Below, in pieces: positions 13,935 through 24,299 of a stretch of 32,350 nt of DNA. This DNA is from Demequina lutea (GTDB lineage Bacteria; Actinomycetota; Actinomycetes; Actinomycetales; Demequinaceae). Under the pieces are notes generated by a model. The model ran no database searches and was not told the DNA's origin. It saw only the letters and a list, made by a program, of their open reading frames with translations. The position numbers and the translations under genes are program-made. The stretch spans positions 1-32,350 of the forward strand of contig QKAX01000094.1 of the NCBI GenBank assembly GCA_003246255.1, given 5' to 3'. How positions within the stretch are numbered: the stretch's first letter is position 1; each line of letters starts with the position of its first letter.

Positions 13935-16841
13935 GTGACGATCACGGAGAACAACGCGGCAGACATCAAGGGCGAGGTGTCGGCGGCAGTTGCCGACGCG
14001 AACCCCCAGCGCAACGGCATTTACGTCACCAAGCGCGACGGCACGCAGGAGCCGTACAACGCCGACCGCATCAACAAGGCGATCGAGAAGGCCGCCGCGG
14101 GTCTGCCCGACCAGATCTCCATCACCACGCAGGTGGCCTCCGAGCTGGCTATCACGCTGTTCGACGGCATCACCACCGAGCAGCTGGACGAGGCTGCGAT
14201 TGGCGTGGCGGTCCAGAACGTCAAGGACGACCCCAACTTCGACATCGTCGCGGCGCGCCTGCTCCGCAAGGTCATCTACAAGCGCGTGCTGGGCGGCTAC
14301 GACACGGAGCTTGAGCTCGCGCTGCTGCACCAGGCCCGCTTCCCCGGCTACATTCGCGACGCCGTCGAGGAGGGGCTGCTCGACACGCGCCTCGTGGAGC
14401 TGTTTGACCTGGACGCCCTCGCCGCGGCGATCGACCACCGTCGTGACGACCTCATGAAGTACATCGGCACCGTGACCATGCGCAACCGCTACATGATCAC
14501 CGATCGCCATGGCAAGGCGCTCGAGGTGCCCCAGTACTTCTGGATGCGCGTCTCCATGGGCCTGTCGCTCAACGAGAACAACCCCACGCAGGCGGCGCTC
14601 AAGTTCTACGACAAGATCTCGAACCTCGAGTACCTGCCCGCAGGCTCCACGCTGGTGAACGCCGGCACCTCGTACCCCCAGCTCTCCAACTGCTTCGTGA
14701 TGCAGATGGAGGACGACATCGAGCACATCGCCAAGTCGGTGCGCGACGTCATGTGGCTCACCAAGGGCACCGGAGGTATCGGCCTCTCGGTCACCAAGCT
14801 GCGCTCCGAGGGTTCGCCTATCAAGTCGAACAACACCACCTCGACCGGCCCCATCCCGTTCATGCACACCATTGACTCGACGCTGCGCGCCGTGTCGCGA
14901 GGCGGCAAGAAGTTTGGCGCGCTGGCGTTCTACATGGAGAACTGGCACCTGGACTTCCACCAGTTCCTTGACCTGCGCCAGAACTCAGGTGACCCCTACC
15001 GCCGTACCCGCACCGCGAACACGGCCGTGTGGATCTCGGACGAGTTCATGAAGCGCGTGCAGAACGATCAGGACTGGTACCTGTTCGATCCCGCCGAGAC
15101 GCCCGACCTTGTTGAGCTCGTCGGCTCCGCCTTCTCGGCCCGCTACGCCGAGTACATCGCGATGGCCGAGTCCGGCCGCATGCACCGCTTCCAGAAGATG
15201 CGCGCCCGCGAGCAGTACAAGCAGATCCTTGTGACCCTGCAGACCACGTCGCACCCCTGGCTCACGTGGAAGGACACGATCAACAACCGTGCCCTGAACA
15301 CCAACACGGGCACCATCCACCTCAGCAACCTGTGCACCGAGATCTGCCTGCCGCAGGACCGCGAGAACATCGCCGTCTGCAACCTGGCGTCCATCAACCT
15401 GCCCGCGCACTTCATCGACGGCGAGATCGACTGGAAGCGCATGGAGACCTCCACGCGCCTCGCCGTGCGCCAGCTCGACAACCTCGTGGACATCACGCTG
15501 TCGTCAGTGCCCGAGTCCGAGCACGCCAACCGCGAGAACCGCGCGATCGGCCTGGGTGTCATGGGCTTCACCGACATCACCGAGAAGAAGGGCCTCGCGT
15601 ACGACTCCGAGGAGGCGTACGAGCTGATCGACGAGATCGTCGAGTTCGTGTCGTACCACGCGATCGACGAGTCGGCCGATCTTGCCCGAGAGCGCGGCTC
15701 GTACGACAACTTCGAGGGCTCCGGCTGGTCGAAGGGCCTCGTGCCGTTCGACACGATCGCCAAGGTAGAGGAGGACCGCGGCGTCGCGCTCACGGTTGAC
15801 CGCACCATGCGCATGGACTGGGACGTGCTGCGCGAGAAGGTCAAGGGCGGCATCCGCAACGCGACCCTCATGGCCGTGGCGCCCACCGCGTCGATCGGCC
15901 TCGTGGCCGGCACCACGCCCGGCTTCGACCCGCAGTTCTCGCAGATCTTCAGCCGCAACACCTCGTCCGGCAAGTTCCTCGAGGTGAACCGCAACCTGGT
16001 CGAGGACCTGCAGAAGCTGGGCATCTGGGAGGACGTCAAGGACCAGTTGCTGGCCGCGCAGGGCGACCTGTCTAAGGTCGAGGGCGTGCCCGAGCACCTG
16101 GTCGAGGTCTACAAGACCTCGTTCCAGCTGGACCCGCACGCGTTCCTCGAGGTCGCCGCGCGCGCCCAGAAGTGGATCGACCAGGCCATCAGCCGCAACA
16201 TCTACCTTGAGGACCGCGACGTCGACAAGATGATGGACCTCTACGCCTTCGCGTGGGAGAAGGGCGTCAAGACGACGTACTACCTCCACATGAAGCCGCG
16301 TCACACCGCCGAGCAGTCGACTGTGCGCGTGAATAAGACGGAGAACATCAACAAGACTGGCTCGGCCTCGGGCCGCGCCGCGGCGTCCACGTCGGGCCCC
16401 TCGCGCACCGGCTTTGGCGGAGCTCGCAAGGGATTCGGCGGGGCCGTCAAGCCCGCGTCGTCCGCCGCGCCCGTTGCTGAGGCGGCGGCCGACGCTCCGG
16501 TCGAGGCTCCCGCTGTCGCACCGGCTACCGCCCCCGCCCGCAAGGGCTTCGGCGGACTCGCGAAGGCAGCGGCTCCCGTGGCCGCCGTCGCCACGGAGGC
16601 TCCCGAGGCGCTTGCCCCGGCTCCGGCCGACAAGCCCGCGCTTCCCCCCACGTCGCTTCCCGAGGCTCCGGCCCCTGAGGCGCAGGAGGCTGCCGCGCCC
16701 GCGATCGCTCCCATGGGATCCACGGTGTTCGAGGTGCTCGACGCCTCGTTCATCAACGCGAGCGGCGACACTGAGCTGGTGGACGGAGTGGCATGCCCCG
16801 TCGACCCGATGGAGCGCCTCCAGTGCGAGTCCTGCCAGTAG
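13935..16841 (+). CDS. nrdA: Ribonucleoside-diphosphate reductase large subunit, long-tailed
   Basis: This subunit reduces ribonucleotides to deoxyribonucleotides with NrdB. The 968 residues begin with one ATP-cone (about 28-120: YVTKRDGTQEPYNADRINKA), the dATP/ATP activity switch. The catalytic barrel carries the redox Cys pair C253 (SNCFVMQ) and C482 (AVCNLAS), and the thiyl-radical Cys C467 with E469 in NLCTEICLP. A radical-transfer Tyr pair is in TTYYLHMKPR. The core ends near residue 800. A linker of about 125 residues, mostly Ala and Pro with RKGFGG-type repeats near 828-835 and 868-873, leads to the tail. The tail ends CESCQ, with the reductant-shuttling C964 and C967. GTG 13935 has AAGGAG four bases upstream. 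NrdB follows 46 bases on. Pairing with a Phe-type NrdB marks a subclass Ic system. Confidence 0.96.
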   Translation: MTITENNAADIKGEVSAAVADANPQRNGIYVTKRDGTQEPYNADRINKAIEKAAAGLPDQISITTQVASELAITLFDGITTEQLDEAAIGVAVQNVKDDPNFDIVAARLLRKVIYKRVLGGYDTELELALLHQARFPGYIRDAVEEGLLDTRLVELFDLDALAAAIDHRRDDLMKYIGTVTMRNRYMITDRHGKALEVPQYFWMRVSMGLSLNENNPTQAALKFYDKISNLEYLPAGSTLVNAGTSYPQLSNCFVMQMEDDIEHIAKSVRDVMWLTKGTGGIGLSVTKLRSEGSPIKSNNTTSTGPIPFMHTIDSTLRAVSRGGKKFGALAFYMENWHLDFHQFLDLRQNSGDPYRRTRTANTAVWISDEFMKRVQNDQDWYLFDPAETPDLVELVGSAFSARYAEYIAMAESGRMHRFQKMRAREQYKQILVTLQTTSHPWLTWKDTINNRALNTNTGTIHLSNLCTEICLPQDRENIAVCNLASINLPAHFIDGEIDWKRMETSTRLAVRQLDNLVDITLSSVPESEHANRENRAIGLGVMGFTDITEKKGLAYDSEEAYELIDEIVEFVSYHAIDESADLARERGSYDNFEGSGWSKGLVPFDTIAKVEEDRGVALTVDRTMRMDWDVLREKVKGGIRNATLMAVAPTASIGLVAGTTPGFDPQFSQIFSRNTSSGKFLEVNRNLVEDLQKLGIWEDVKDQLLAAQGDLSKVEGVPEHLVEVYKTSFQLDPHAFLEVAARAQKWIDQAISRNIYLEDRDVDKMMDLYAFAWEKGVKTTYYLHMKPRHTAEQSTVRVNKTENINKTGSASGRAAASTSGPSRTGFGGARKGFGGAVKPASSAAPVAEAAADAPVEAPAVAPATAPARKGFGGLAKAAAPVAAVATEAPEALAPAPADKPALPPTSLPEAPAPEAQEAAAPAIAPMGSTVFEVLDASFINASGDTELVDGVACPVDPMERLQCESCQ

Positions 16842-16887
16842 GCAGCGCTCACCTCACCCGTAACGATTCGTAAGTAAGGAAGAGACG

Positions 16888-17880
16888 ATGGCCATTCTCG
16901 GCTCCGGCGTCCAGGACGGACTCCTGCTCAAGCCAGTGACCTACCAGTGGGCGATGGACCTGTACGACCAGGCCGTGGCAAACACGTGGTTCCCCAACGA
17001 GATTCAGCTGGGCGAAGACCTCGCTGACTTCAAGAAGATGACGGATGACGAGAAGCACGCGCTGCTTCACCTCATCTCGTACTTCAACCCCAACGAGCTG
17101 CTCGTCAACAAGGCGCTCGCGTTTGGCGTGTACCCCTACATCAACGCTCCCGAGGCACACCTGTACCTCGCCAAGCAGATGTGGGAAGAGGCCAACCACA
17201 CGATGACGTTCGAGTACATCCTCGAGACGTTCCCCATCGACCGCGAGAAGGCGTACTCGGCGCACGTCGAGGTGCCCTCGATGGCCGCCAAGGAGGCGTT
17301 CGAGACCAAGTTCATCAAGCGGATGACCGAGGACACCCTCGACATCAAGACCACCGAGGGCAAGAAGGACTTCATCCGCAACCTCATCGCCTACAACATC
17401 ATCCTTGAGGGCATCTGGTTCTACTCGGGCTTCATGGTCGCGCTGTCGTTCCGTCAGCGGAACCTGCTGCGCAACTTCGGCTCGCTCATGGACTGGATCA
17501 TCCGCGACGAGTCGCTGCACCTGCAGTTTGGCATCAACCTGATCCTCACAGTGCTCGACGAGAATGAGGACCTTCAGGACCCGGAGTTCGCCGAGGAGAT
17601 CCGCGGCATGATCCTCCAGGCAGTGGAGATGGAAGAGGCCTACAACCGCGACATGTTCCCCCGCGGCATCCTCGGCCTCAACGCCGACTACGTGAACACG
17701 TACGTTAAGTACCTCACTGACCGTCGCCTTGAGGAACTGGGCTTCGAGCCCGAGTTCAACGTGTCGAACCCCGCCAAGTGGATGGCGGCCGCCAATGACA
17801 CCCTGCAGCTCGTGAACTTCTTTGAGCAGCAGAACACCTCCTACGAGGTGAACGCGCAGGCCAGCTCCAAGCGCGACTAG
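16888..17880 (+). CDS. nrdB: Ribonucleotide reductase small subunit, subclass Ic (Mn/Fe) type
   Basis: NrdB generates the oxidant that starts radical chemistry in NrdA. All six metal ligands are visible: E70, E101, H104, E174, E208 and H211. Two positions are diagnostic. The Tyr radical site is Phe108 (EANHTMTFEYIL), and the first carboxylate, usually Asp, is Glu70 (NPNELLVNK). The same combination and ligand spacing (31, 3, 4, 66, 34 and 3 residues) is known from Chlamydia trachomatis R2, which uses a Mn(IV)/Fe(III) centre instead of a tyrosyl radical. The block LEGIWFYSGFMVALSF and PRGILGLNADY also match that group. AAGGAAGAG precedes the ATG. Length (330) is normal. The cofactor is inferred from these residues. 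Confidence 0.96.
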   Translation: MAILGSGVQDGLLLKPVTYQWAMDLYDQAVANTWFPNEIQLGEDLADFKKMTDDEKHALLHLISYFNPNELLVNKALAFGVYPYINAPEAHLYLAKQMWEEANHTMTFEYILETFPIDREKAYSAHVEVPSMAAKEAFETKFIKRMTEDTLDIKTTEGKKDFIRNLIAYNIILEGIWFYSGFMVALSFRQRNLLRNFGSLMDWIIRDESLHLQFGINLILTVLDENEDLQDPEFAEEIRGMILQAVEMEEAYNRDMFPRGILGLNADYVNTYVKYLTDRRLEELGFEPEFNVSNPAKWMAAANDTLQLVNFFEQQNTSYEVNAQASSKRD

Positions 17881-20081: not shown

Positions 20082-23000
20082 CTACTCGTCGTCGGCGATG
20101 GTGACCGTGAGCGTGCTGAGCAAGAAGTTGTCGCCCGAGGATCTGACGGTGACTGTGTGGACTCCAGCCGGCACCGTTCCTGGGCGGAACAGCTTCACGT
20201 CCACTCCCAGCGCATTGGCGTACAGGCCTCCGGTGGCCGTGGAGTCCGCCGCATTGCCCGAGTCGCCCACAAACGATCGAGTTCCATCCCAGCGCATGGG
20301 CGCGTACGTGTCGCCGTCGACGTCGATCCGGTCGCCGATCAGCGCTCGGTCGCCCTCCCATGCGGTCCAGCCGAGGGTGACCTGGGCGCGCGAGTTCGTG
20401 GAGAACGTGAAGTCGGCCTTGTTGGCGGTGGAGACCCACTCGGAGCCGTCGAAGAGTGCGACGCGCGAGTTGGCGAGCGTGGGATCGGCGTAGACGATGG
20501 TGAGGGCCCAGCCGCCAAAGTAGGTGCTGTTGGGGTCCTTACGTGTCGCCGCGAGCGCCACGTCGGCGACCGACCACTCGCCGGAGCCGAACTCGTCGAC
20601 CAGGTCGGTGACGTCGGCGCGTGCCTGGTAGTACACGCGACCGTCGGGGTCATAGGTCTGCGACACGGAGTCGGCGGTGATGTCGAGGTACTGAGCCTGA
20701 CCCGGCGCGCGCAGCCGTGCGGCGTCCAGTGGGCCGCTGAAGGCGTCGGTGGAGTAGCGGTTGGCCGCCCACTCGAGGCTCGCGTACGTCACGTGCGCGC
20801 CCGCGGGGAGCTGCAGCATCGAGGAGGAGGAGTTGCTGGTGCCGCCTGCCTCGTTGAGCGCCAACATGGTCCACGAGTTGTTGTTCGCGGAGCTGTTGGT
20901 GGTGCTCCCTGCGGAGCTCATGACCGCCACGCACGAGGAGTCGCGCTGGTCGCAACCCATCAGAGTGGCGCCCACGTGCATGGCCGCGAGGTGGCCCTCG
21001 TCGGAGTAGACGACGTCAACGTCCTCCTCGTTCTGCTCCACTCCGGTGAGCACCGAGTAATCGATCGACTGGTCGCCCGACGCCACCTTGAAACTGGTGC
21101 TGGCATCGTGCGCGAGCGCTCCGCCCACGCTTACCGGGAGCTCGAGCCGCGATGCCCCGCCAGCTCCGAGCGTGGTGAGCAAGCAGTCCGCCGTCGCGTT
21201 GCCGTCGGCGTAGGTGCAGGTCCAGTCGCCAGCCGCAAAGGCTCCCGTGGTGGCAAACTCCATATAGGCGGCGAGGCGCTGGGCAGGGAACGCGCTGAGC
21301 GCTGCGGCTCCGCCTGGCGGCGGGCCGAAGGTCAGTCCAGCCGGAAGCGTGATCTGCGCCGTGATGTCATCAGCCGCGCCGTCTCCCGTGTTGGAGAGCG
21401 ACATGGCGAGGCGCGGGTTGGTGTGGGGAATCTCTAGGTAATCGAGTGGCGCCTTGGCGAGGCTCAGGAGCGCCACCGGCGCAGCGGGCGGTACGTCGCC
21501 GGAGCCTGGGCCATCACCCGTGCCGTCGCCGGAACCGGTGCCTGGATCGGTACCAGTGCCCGTACCGTCGCCGGAACCGGAACCGGAACCGGTGCCGGGG
21601 TCGGTACCAGTGCCAGCTCCCGAGCCGTCGCCGGGACCCGATCCGGTACCTGTGCCGGTGCCGCCGCTAGTTCCCGTGCCTGCACCTGCACCTGCACCTG
21701 TGCCTGTGCCGGTGCCGTCGCCGGTGCCGTCGCCGGTTCCCGTTCCGGTGCTGGTTCCCGTTCCGGAACCGTCGCCGGTTCCCGTTCCGGAGCCGTCGCC
21801 GGTTCCCGTTCCGGTGCTGGTTCCCGTGCCTGCGCCTGTGCCCGACGTGCCGCCGGAGGTGCCGCCGCGCGTCGCTCCAGGGTGGGAGTCTGTGGAGGGC
21901 GGCGCGTCGGTGGTGCCGTCGCCGGGGTCGGTGGCGGCATCCGACGGTGTCGTCGTCGACTCAGAAGCGACGCCCCCATCGCGGGCCGCAGATCCCGAGC
22001 CATCTCCCGCAGCGTCGTCGTGCGGGACGGGTCCGGTCTGAGCCTGCGGCGGCAAGCCGGGGTCGCCCGTGGGGTCGCCGCTGATCGCTCCAAAGAATCC
22101 CGCGCCGGCAATGGCGACGGACGCGACGCCCACCACCGCTGCGGCTGGCAGTAGCAGAGCGCCCGCGCCGGCAAGAAGGCCGCCGATGCCAGCACCCGCG
22201 CCCACTGATGCGCCGGCAGCGACGCCCGCACCGGTTGCCGCCCCCGCGCCTACAGCCGTCCCAGCGCCCGCAGCCGCGCCAATCGCACTCGTTGCGGCTC
22301 CGCCAGCTCCTGCCGTGCTGCCCGCAGCGCCCGCTCCCGCCGCGCCCACGGCTGCGGGTGCGGGAGCCCCGCCGGAGGTGAGCATGGCCGCGACTCCGGC
22401 GCCCACAATGGCCGCTGCTCCTCCGGCACCTGCGGCGACGCCCCCGGTGCCAGCGCCAGCAATACCTGCGCCGGTGCCCGCTCCTGCGCCAGCACCGCCT
22501 GCCGCAGCGGCGCCGGTTCCAAACGCGCCGCCGATCGGGAGGCCGCCCTGCAACGCGCCAAGGCCCGCGGCTCCGAGGATGAGGGGCGCGATCACCGCGC
22601 GCATGCCGCGGTTCACGTCTTCAAGCTCAGCGATCAGGGCTGCGCACTTGGGGCACAGTTGCACGTGGTTGTCGACGCGTGCCGCCTCGCGCTTGCTCAG
22701 CCCGCCGCGCACAAAGGCACCCAACTGCGTGTTGACCTCGATGCAGTCAACATCGTCGGCGCCGGCGAGGTGCTGCTGAAGGTATGCCTGGCGCAGAGCC
22801 TCGCGGGCGCGATACGACAGCGCCGCGACGCCGTTCGCTGTGAGGCCAAGCAGAGGCGCGATCTCCTTGGGGCTCTTCTTTTCCACCTCGGTGTACCAGA
22901 GCACCGCCTGCCAGCGTTCGGGGAGCGACTTGAAGGCATCGGCGACGAGGCTCTGCTCAAAGCCGGCCATGGCGGGCTCGTCGGAGGCGGCCTCGTAGCC

Positions 23001-23345
23001 GAGAGCATCCTCGAAGGTGCTCATGTCGTCGCGCGGCCGGGTGCGGATGCCCTTGTTGATGAGGTCCATGCCCGTGCGTCGCACGATGGTGAAGAGGTAG
23101 GCGCGGAAGGCAAGGTCGGGGCCGTCGCCCTGTTGCAGCGCCCGCAACACGCGCGAGAAGGACTCGGAGACCACGTCATCGATGTCCGACGCGGCGTTGG
23201 TGTACTGCGCCGCAACCTTGCGTGCGGCGTCGGCGTGGCGCTCGTAGAGCACGCCAAAGGCAGCCGAGTCGCCGGCGCGCACACCGGCAATCAGCTCGGG
23301 ATCGCTGGACGTCTCCGTCCACAGCGCGATCTGGTTCTGCCCCAT
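20082..23345 (-). CDS. ECF sigma factor fused to a zinc anti-sigma motif, membrane segments and exported ectodomain
   Basis: This 1087-residue protein starts with an ECF sigma factor: region 2 (about 28-95, with [17 protein letters not shown]) and region 4 (about 135-190, with [21 protein letters not shown] on reading). A canonical zinc anti-sigma motif follows, H227-x3-C231-x2-C234. Next comes a very Gly/Ala-rich stretch (250-420) with plausible membrane helices near 250-268 and 386-420. An export-type Gly/Thr/Asp/Pro linker spans about 425-620. The ectodomain (625-1087) has a DUF11-like strand set ([20 protein letters not shown]) and a module with GEWSVADV and [12 protein letters not shown]. 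It also has four Cys able to pair. ATG 23345 has GGAAAGG upstream. The sigma part would be tethered inside the membrane. The signal and release mechanism are unknown. Confidence 0.85.
21490..21860 (-). repeat. Low-complexity Gly-Thr/Asp repeat in the sigma-fusion gene
   Basis: Short imperfect repeats of 6-18 bases, built on plus-strand units such as CCGGTTCCCGTTCCGG, encode runs of GTGTG, GDGSGTG and GTDPGTG. This is the stalk between membrane and ectodomain. Repeat number is likely to vary between strains. Confidence 0.85.
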
Positions 23346-23378: not shown

Positions 23379-23525
23379 GGTCACACTATGTTCCCTCGCA
23401 CCCCATCGTGCGCACAAGAACACGCGGCAGTGGCCTTTGTCACAAACCTCGACCATCTTGGTGCATTTCTGAAGTTTTTTGAAGACCTCGCGTCATAGGG
23501 TGTGCACTCGCCCCTCTCATGGGGC

Positions 23526-24299
23526 ATGACAGGCAATGAGCACTCCACGAGCGAGGTCGGCACGTCCGACCTGTTGCTCCTGTGGCAGTCGCGCAGCATC
23601 GACTCCGTGTGGCTGCGCCCCGGCGATTGGTACACGCCTGCCGCCGAGGCTCTGGTCGAGGCTCTCGAGGCCCGCCTGGACACGGCGCCCGCGGCGTTCC
23701 GCCTGGGTCAGGCCCGCTCCGAGGCTGGAGTGGGCATCACCGAGGCCATCGACGACATGGCGGTGCTCTTCAAGTCGGCCGGATATGAGACGGCTCCCAT
23801 CCGGTCCGTCCGCGCGCTGTGCGCCGGCTGGACAGAGGGCACCGTCGCGGCACCTTCGGTTCCTCAGATGGCCGATGCGGAGTCGGGCCTGGGCAGCGCC
23901 GAGTACCTCACGCAGCGGTTGGCGGAGGTGTACGGCTCGGCGACGCGCCACGGCACCACGGTGCCGCAGACGCACGCGCTGGTGATGATCGACGTGACGG
24001 CGGATGACTCGGACCCGTGGCAGCGCATGGCGCGCAACGCGGCCGTTGGTCAGGCGCTCAAGGGCGCCTATGGCGACGGCTACCCCATGTCGCGCTTGGG
24101 CGATGGCCTCTACGCCGTCCTCGTCGAGCGCGGACCGATGCTGGGCCACGGCATCGCGGTGCTGCGCGACCACATTTCCGAGCGGGCGATCACGATGCGG
24201 GTGGGGAACCTGGTGCGACAGCCCCCGCGTGTATGGATCGAATCGCTGCCAGAGACCCACCGCTACGCGCACGAGCTGATCGACTCGCTGCAGCGGTAG
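23526..24299 (+). CDS. Protein with a degenerate GGDEF domain
   Basis: This 257-residue soluble protein has an N-terminal helical part of unknown type. From about residue 117 it follows a GGDEF domain: DAESGLGSAEYLTQRLAEV corresponds to the usual D-x-LTGL-x-NR start, and HALVMIDV to the LxxxDxD strand. SRLGDGLYAVLV (189-200) stands where active enzymes have RLGGDEFAVLL. The signature is GDGLY and lacks the catalytic acidic residues, so diguanylate cyclase activity is not expected. It could bind a nucleotide or serve as a protein-interaction module (inference). The start is uncertain: ATG 23526 is used, GTG 23502 is in frame, and neither has a good ribosome binding site. It is divergent from the sigma-fusion gene and ends at a strong terminator. 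Confidence 0.75.
   Translation: MTGNEHSTSEVGTSDLLLLWQSRSIDSVWLRPGDWYTPAAEALVEALEARLDTAPAAFRLGQARSEAGVGITEAIDDMAVLFKSAGYETAPIRSVRALCAGWTEGTVAAPSVPQMADAESGLGSAEYLTQRLAEVYGSATRHGTTVPQTHALVMIDVTADDSDPWQRMARNAAVGQALKGAYGDGYPMSRLGDGLYAVLVERGPMLGHGIAVLRDHISERAITMRVGNLVRQPPRVWIESLPETHRYAHELIDSLQR

Follow-up and report, generated by a model that had tools for sequence, protein, structure and literature searches.

A putative one-protein membrane switch in Demequina lutea: an ECF sigma factor fused to a zinc anti-sigma domain, with a conserved divergent partner and promoter-like element

The 32,350-nucleotide stretch of Demequina lutea DNA analysed here (contig QKAX01000094.1, assembly GCA_003246255.1; hereafter the window) carries a gene that joins an extracytoplasmic function (ECF) sigma factor, a zinc anti-sigma domain, a linker, a probable transmembrane helix, a stalk and an ectodomain in one reading frame. 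The existence of this one-frame protein is confirmed, and its domains, their conserved order, a conserved divergent partner gene and a conserved promoter-like element between the two genes, GCGTCAT-N18-TCTCA, are all present in the DNA. We read the protein, with a probability of about 0.7, as a membrane switch of the fused ECF sigma/zinc anti-sigma kind, from which proteolysis would release a sigma factor that fires a GCGTCAT-N18-TCTCA regulon. The sigma domain would be cytoplasmic and kept inactive in cis by the zinc anti-sigma domain, and a single membrane helix would be followed by the stalk and a beta-rich ectodomain facing outwards. On a surface signal, the protein would be cut first outside the membrane and then within it, and the freed sigma fragment, bound to RNA polymerase, would drive transcription from GCGTCAT-N18-TCTCA promoters. 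The predicted regulon comprises the divergent partner; in Demequina it further takes in an LRV-type protein, a BldC-like regulator, a nitrate-sensing kinase and a small exported protein. We infer inhibition in cis, the topology, proteolysis, the signal and the reading of this promoter by this sigma factor from sequence. The features, in the numbering of the window, are as follows.

20082 to 23345, minus strand: whole gene, 1,087 amino acids (ECF sigma factor, zinc anti-sigma domain, linker, probable transmembrane helix, stalk, ectodomain)
23052 to 23249, minus strand: sigma region 2, residues 33-98 (Pfam PF04542, Sigma70_r2, 8.8e-12, above the cut-off)
22794 to 22943, minus strand: sigma region 4, residues 135-184 (Pfam PF08281, Sigma70_r4_2, 4e-5)
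22641 to 22745, minus strand: zinc anti-sigma core, residues 201-235, C201 and H227-x3-C231-x2-C234 (Pfam zf-HC2, 8.9e-7; RslA/ChrR profile match)
22542 to 22610, minus strand: conserved hydrophobic segment, residues 246-268, interpreted as the final part of the anti-sigma domain and not as a membrane helix
22161 to 22535, minus strand: uncharged Gly/Ala linker, residues 271-395 (composition; predicted disorder)
22086 to 22160, minus strand: probable single transmembrane helix, residues 396-420 (hydropathy; helix 399-417 in an AlphaFold2 model)
21486 to 22085, minus strand: Gly/Thr/Asp/Ser stalk, residues 421-620, encoded in degenerate tandem repeats
21030 to 21485, minus strand: ectodomain part 1, residues 621-772, predicted Ig-like beta-sandwich, DUF11-like (AlphaFold2; DUF11 matches in the family; structure matches)
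20085 to 21029, minus strand: ectodomain part 2, residues 773-1087, predicted beta-rich, weakly DUF3344-like (AlphaFold2; few DUF3344 matches)
23490 to 23519, plus strand: predicted ECF-type promoter of the divergent partner, GCGTCAT-N18-TCTCA (invariant core in 17 aligned loci; partner loci; genome-wide counts)
23526 to 24299, plus strand: divergent partner gene, 257 amino acids (not assigned to any Pfam family; a degenerate GGDEF-like fold is weakly hinted at)

The frame is uninterrupted over 1,087 codons, and its start at 23345 (MGQNQIALW...) matches the start in most homologues. Sigma region 4 scored 23.6 bits, slightly below the cut-off of 25.7, and the NCBIfam sigma70-ECF model TIGR02937 matched residues 29-187 at 6e-20. 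A Pfam scan of the 1,087-residue protein gave no match to sigma region 3. With regions 2 and 4 and without region 3, the protein classifies by sequence as an ECF sigma factor. Its zinc core aligned with RslA in a profile of 45 sequences, where H227, C231 and C234 never vary and C201 rarely does, and the profile search matched the known anti-sigma domains of RslA (3.6e-4) and ChrR (6.7e-4). Three of the seven Cys residues (201, 231 and 234) fit zinc ligands together with H227, and the other four (710, 721, 798 and 805) lie in the ectodomain. The Hx3Cx2C motif, the upstream ligand and the kinship to known anti-sigma domains point to a class I zinc anti-sigma domain. The two-protein pairs of ECF sigma factor and class I anti-sigma factor, SigL-RslA and SigE-ChrR, are alike in this domain by sequence profile, whereas in the window protein the anti-sigma domain is fused in cis and followed by a long ectodomain. 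An initial annotation of this DNA had placed sigma regions 2 and 4, a zinc motif, a stalk of about 200 residues and an ectodomain of about 460 in one frame; the open frame and the Pfam and NCBIfam matches bear it out, with a Gly/Thr-rich stalk at residues 421-620 and an ectodomain of about 467 residues.

The same order is kept in homologues. A genome scan yielded 31 Demequina-type loci whose best segments are 61-86% identical; 29 of them come from records titled Demequina or Demequinaceae. In 27 the frame can be followed to its end, and each of these has both the sigma start and the ectodomain (34 residues being masked as unknown in L030), in agreement with the order given by the initial annotation. 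No frameshift splits the gene in the window or in these 27; of the other four loci, L005 and L029 run off their contigs, and L025 and L031 are frameshifted, with at least two and at least four shifts. These frameshifts are probably sequencing errors in GC-rich repeats, with phase variation as a possible alternative. One of the two frameshifted loci sits in a record titled complete genome. At the level of the order, 101 of 297 genomes contained a relative of residues 1-250 at ≤1e-20, usually within a long frame. Nine of the listed frames are shorter than 400 residues (hand count), some of them at contig ends; homologues are thus not always split into a sigma factor and a surface protein, short frames being counted irrespective of a split-off neighbour. 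In the 34 order relatives of at least 400 residues that were scanned, sigma region 2, region 4 and the zinc finger were each matched in 33. A relative was also present in 105 of 296 genomes of the class, so fused, membrane-tethered ECF sigma factors appear to be common in actinobacteria. With the ectodomain in all 27 readable loci and sigma-zinc relatives across order and class, a chance fusion is unlikely.

In a tree of 49 rows, the window protein falls within a clade of 22 (support 95/94) together with other families of its class. Of the families named here by number, f9 may resemble Cellulomonadaceae and f37 Streptomyces. L077 (G159:C7), from the sister genus, is 60% identical over the sigma-zinc part and ends right after the zinc domain; it is a fused sigma factor and anti-sigma domain, apparently soluble.

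All 31 Demequina-type loci have the divergent partner beside the sigma gene, truncated in one of them by a contig end. It was seen in 21 of the 22 rows of the sigma clade, other families included, with L213 as the exception and weak scores in L208-L210. A Pfam scan of the partner protein gave no family. The GGDEF_2 profile matched one of 19 partner proteins, weakly (0.026), and a search of the PDB returned a GGDEF protein at 0.097, ranked below an unrelated match at 0.043. The stretch D..SGL.T..YL..RL presumably resembles GGDEF domains. These are hints only that the partner may be a GGDEF protein.

Between the two genes, GCGTCAT-N18-TCTCA points towards the partner, whose start codon in the window follows TCTCA by six bases. 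GCGTCAT is present in 52 of 53 partner loci. The exact pair occurs in 40 of the 53: in 32 of 32 Demequina-type loci, from which the motif was originally derived, and in 8 of the 21 remaining loci. Relaxing the -10 to TCnC or TCC raises these figures to 49 of 53 overall and 17 of 21 outside the Demequina type. The full pair was found in 0 of 35 related sigma genes taken as lacking a partner, and GCGTCAT alone in four of them; here, lacking a partner means no strong partner match in the stretch examined, which in some cases reached no further than a few hundred bases upstream, and four of the 35 (L064, L202-L204), none with the element, had weak matches to the partner profile. A typical ECF promoter, AAC-N14-19-CGT, was also considered upstream of the sigma gene and rejected, occurring in 0-1 of 32 loci per spacing.

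A second invariant box, TCACA on the plus strand at 23440-23444 (TGTGA towards the sigma gene), is kept in 17 of 17 aligned loci upstream of an apparent housekeeping-type promoter of the sigma gene, and may be a regulator site. At G271:C1:2335007-2335036, the motif precedes a sigma relative by about 800 bases on the same strand, in contrast to the divergent layout elsewhere.

Genome-wide, the element is enriched and tracks the sigma factor. In 41 Demequina genomes, a search allowing spacings of N17-19 gave 148 matches against 5 for the reversed control, and 134 of the 148 were at N18 (hand count). Across the order, the strict motif was found in 34 of the 101 genomes with a sigma relative (sigma-positive) and in 2 of the 196 without one, and outside the window's own family in 12 of 77 sigma-positive against the same 2 of 196; reversed controls at this level gave four matches each for the strict and the looser motif (hand count). 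The genome lists were compiled by hand, and Fisher values for this association are nominal because the genomes are not independent.

The predicted targets recur. We read 99 N18 sites, picked by hand with most sigma-adjacent ones left out, and grouped the downstream proteins by single linkage. The clusters were an LRV-type protein (28 sites), a BldC-like regulator (16), a nitrate-sensing kinase (12), a small exported protein (8) and the partner (7), with 16 of the 99 in no cluster. Example proteins matched LRV at 1.4e-6, the NCBIfam BldC model at 4.5e-30 and the NIT domain at 2.4e-14; family scans gave no convincing match for the small exported protein. The window's own genome has six N18 sites, of which four precede the partner, the nitrate-sensing kinase, the BldC-like gene and the small exported protein, a fifth precedes a gene that recurs at one other site, and the sixth has no clear target. 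In family f9, the recurrent targets were a LuxR-type helix-turn-helix protein at 4 sites and an EAL protein at 2.

Several observations weigh against this regulon and the switch that would drive it. The relaxed -10 rule was set after inspection of the upstream sequences. L205-L207 have no recognisable -10, and L093 has GCGTCAC in place of GCGTCAT. A narrower pattern gave no partner-side site in the class-level loci L202-L214. The looser motif occurs in 14 of 196 sigma-negative genomes, compared with 20 of 77 sigma-positive genomes outside the window's family. The pair is found in the sigma gene's own direction in 0 of 53 loci, so the usual autoregulation is not seen. More generally, every step of the mechanism is a prediction.

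Another sigma factor could also use the motif, because each of the seven genomes checked has between 8 and 24 matches to sigma region 2, the window's genome having 17. The sigma factor might then be tethered as described and the element, merely intergenic, be read by a different sigma factor or be a two-part operator for a transcription factor. The DNA alone does not name the reader, and the absence of the pair in the sigma gene's direction fits such a reading. Against it, element and partner co-occur across one sigma clade, the pair is missing from the 35 genes taken as lacking a partner, motif presence tracks sigma presence, and the fixed N18 spacing with a start codon six bases past the -10 at the partner is promoter-like. 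We regard a different reader as unlikely. A wider form of the proposed switch, which we consider less likely than not, treats the two genes as one module in a one-component programme of surface sensing: a widespread actinobacterial clade of tethered sigma factors with a divergent GGDEF-like partner, in which a DUF11/DUF3344 ectodomain would sense surface contact and the released sigma factor, with its own promoter code GCGTCAT-N18-TCTCA, would switch on the partner, the BldC-like regulator, the nitrate-sensing kinase and exported surface proteins.

The fused architecture is of a known kind, because ECF48, ECF52 and ECF53 have been published as sigma factors that carry a fused zinc finger plus one or two membrane helices and that proteolysis is expected to release (PMC8999054). 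The window protein fits this kind, with sigma factor, zinc domain, membrane helix and extension in one frame, the helix and the outside location being predicted. ECF48 and ECF53, compared by description only, share the C-terminal zinc finger, the one to two membrane helices and the expected proteolytic activation. Some ECF52 and ECF53 proteins carry glycosyl hydrolase or carbohydrate-binding domains (PMC10766802). SCO4117, of ECF52, is described as the best understood among the fused groups (PMC8999054) and is a fusion of sigma factor, zinc finger, transmembrane region and ectodomain for which activation by proteolysis was proposed; its authors called its promoter theoretical and stated that the activating step could not be identified (PMC5826349).

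ECF52 resembles the window protein in having a sigma factor, zinc finger, transmembrane region, low-complexity stretch and ectodomain in one protein, but it is described with a Pro-rich stretch and a carbohydrate-binding module (smart00776) where the window protein has a Gly/Thr stalk and a DUF11/DUF3344-like ectodomain, and the motif proposed for SCO4117, CSGYN-17bps-SRHA (PMC5826349), differs from GCGTCAT-N18-TCTCA. Membership of ECF52 was rejected: the window protein's ectodomain has no NPCBM match (Pfam, E up to 1), its stalk is not proline-rich (9% Pro), and its sigma factor lies in another clade of the tree (SCO4117 itself being outside the tree). NPCBM was found in 7 of 20 class-level relatives, and these seven form a separate clade (support 100/100), have no element and, within the stretches examined, no adjacent partner. 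Among the matches listed from the open-licence PMC literature, we recognised no paper, by title or abstract, on this clade, partner or promoter. The initial annotation had called the architecture under-described; for the architecture itself this does not hold, whereas within the literature searched the variant, its partner and its promoter are new. For one clade, the conserved pair of partner gene and promoter supplies a specific target sequence, together with a predicted regulon and a testable partner protein.

Proteolysis in the proposed switch leans on these relatives. IutY of Pseudomonas putida (ECF243), compared by description only, is likewise a sigma factor fused to a membrane anti-sigma, and differs in serving iron-siderophore cell-surface signalling; it is the tested case of a fused sigma/anti-sigma protein and is reported to be cleaved by Prc and RseP (PMC8999054). 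A sigma factor that stays tethered, with a signal loosening the zinc domain and transcription proceeding at the membrane, would need no cleavage at all. The long Gly/Ala linker would allow the reach, and no cleavage site is known, none having been searched for here. Published models for this kind favour release, however, as does the cleavage of IutY, and M50 proteases are present: Peptidase_M50 proteins are encoded at two places in the window's genome, which is weak evidence, as the family is found in all 14 control genomes. Activity at the membrane therefore seems to us improbable, and release by proteolysis the better account.

Whether the ectodomain lies outside depends on the number of membrane helices. 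We analysed 62 proteins for topology (10 of 72 were left out as truncated, frameshifted, lacking the region or, for L022, mis-started), using a hydropathy scale and membrane-insertion parameters entered by hand. Two hydrophobic segments recur across the family. The first aligns with a soluble protein (window residues 205-268, profile positions 204-267, with residues 9-72 of the anti-sigma domain of ChrR), and the later one, residues 396-420, has the better membrane-insertion score (median 0.88 against 1.82, on the hand-entered parameters); in 60 of 62 proteins an acidic flank comes directly behind it. The linker between them is 35% Gly and 40% Ala, contains no Lys, Arg, Asp or Glu, and was predicted to be disordered up to about residue 398 in an AlphaFold2 model from the sigma factor to the transmembrane region. 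The helix at 399-417 in this model has low confidence (predicted local distance difference test, pLDDT, 44-63 in blocks). The ChrR alignment, the better score of the second segment, the acidic flank, the modelled helix and the conserved Cys pairs of the ectodomain together favour a single helix near residues 396-420, running from inside to outside, as most likely.

Other features pull the other way. The classic positive-inside signal is weak because the linker is nearly uncharged and, where charged, carries acidic residues (33 of 62) more frequently than basic ones (13 of 62), and further linker stretches also exceed the simple hydropathy threshold. As to inhibition in cis, the sigma-to-transmembrane model has a predicted template modelling score (pTM) of 0.37 and a mean pLDDT of 68.1, and so fails to show that the zinc domain packs against the sigma factor. 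Four 19-residue windows lie above the threshold (247-265, 303-321, 381-399 and 403-421), and published groups are described with one to two helices (PMC8999054). If there were two helices (247-267 and 396-420) or any other even number, the 'ectodomain' would stay cytoplasmic. This is very unlikely given the soluble ChrR counterpart and worse score of the first segment, the predicted disorder of the linker, the four invariant ectodomain Cys residues and the acidic flank past the last segment. The initial annotation had spoken of membrane segments between the zinc motif and the stalk: one probable helix stands, at low confidence, while the plural falls, the others being the end of the anti-sigma domain or disordered linker. 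The in-to-out architecture it proposed for the single polypeptide remains likely, on a predicted topology.

Beyond the helix, the stalk is 35% Gly, 21% Thr, 11% Asp and 9% Pro. The ectodomain was modelled by AlphaFold2 from 26 sequences as mainly beta-strand (mean pLDDT 90.7, pTM 0.86). Cys 710, 721, 798 and 805 are invariant in the 26 aligned ectodomains (26 of 28 full-length) and likely form two disulphides. DUF11 was matched in 19 of 26 family members (Pfam, E up to 1), so the DUF11-like strands that the initial annotation saw are a property of the family; the window protein's own ectodomain had no Pfam match at E up to 1, DUF11 and DUF3344 included. DUF3344 was matched in 2 of 26 family members at the same limit and in 2 of 20 class-level relatives. 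A PDB sequence search with the ectodomain profile gave no useful match. Structural matches cover mainly the first ~150 residues and are to generic Ig-like domains, among them the CLIPPER domain of a fibrillar adhesin (9ifr, Z 10.6, 115 aligned residues, root-mean-square deviation 2.9), alongside alpha-2-macroglobulin, integrin and complement domains. Naming a ligand from the fold was dropped for this reason. From the model, a role in sensing or adhesion is plausible; a cell-wall or adhesion signal is a guess.

The window-type ectodomain is strongly present in 10 of 60 more distant proteins, nine of them rows of the window's sigma clade and the tenth, L092, outside the tree's sample. In another family, L202-L204 carry lectin-like C-terminal ends on the same sigma-zinc-transmembrane base, so ectodomains look swapped between clades. 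Ig and ricin-B lectin family matches were seen in 3 of 20 class-level relatives (rows not named in the count).

The adhesin-like look of the ectodomain and stalk could suggest a surface protein with an accidental, inactive sigma-like N-terminus, but this is barely credible when the ectodomain alone is 37-58% identical across loci whose best segments reach 61-86% and the invariant columns of the 45 sequences fall in the sigma and zinc parts.

Elsewhere in the window, adjacent genes for the large and small subunits of ribonucleotide reductase occupy 13935-17880, an ordinary arrangement.

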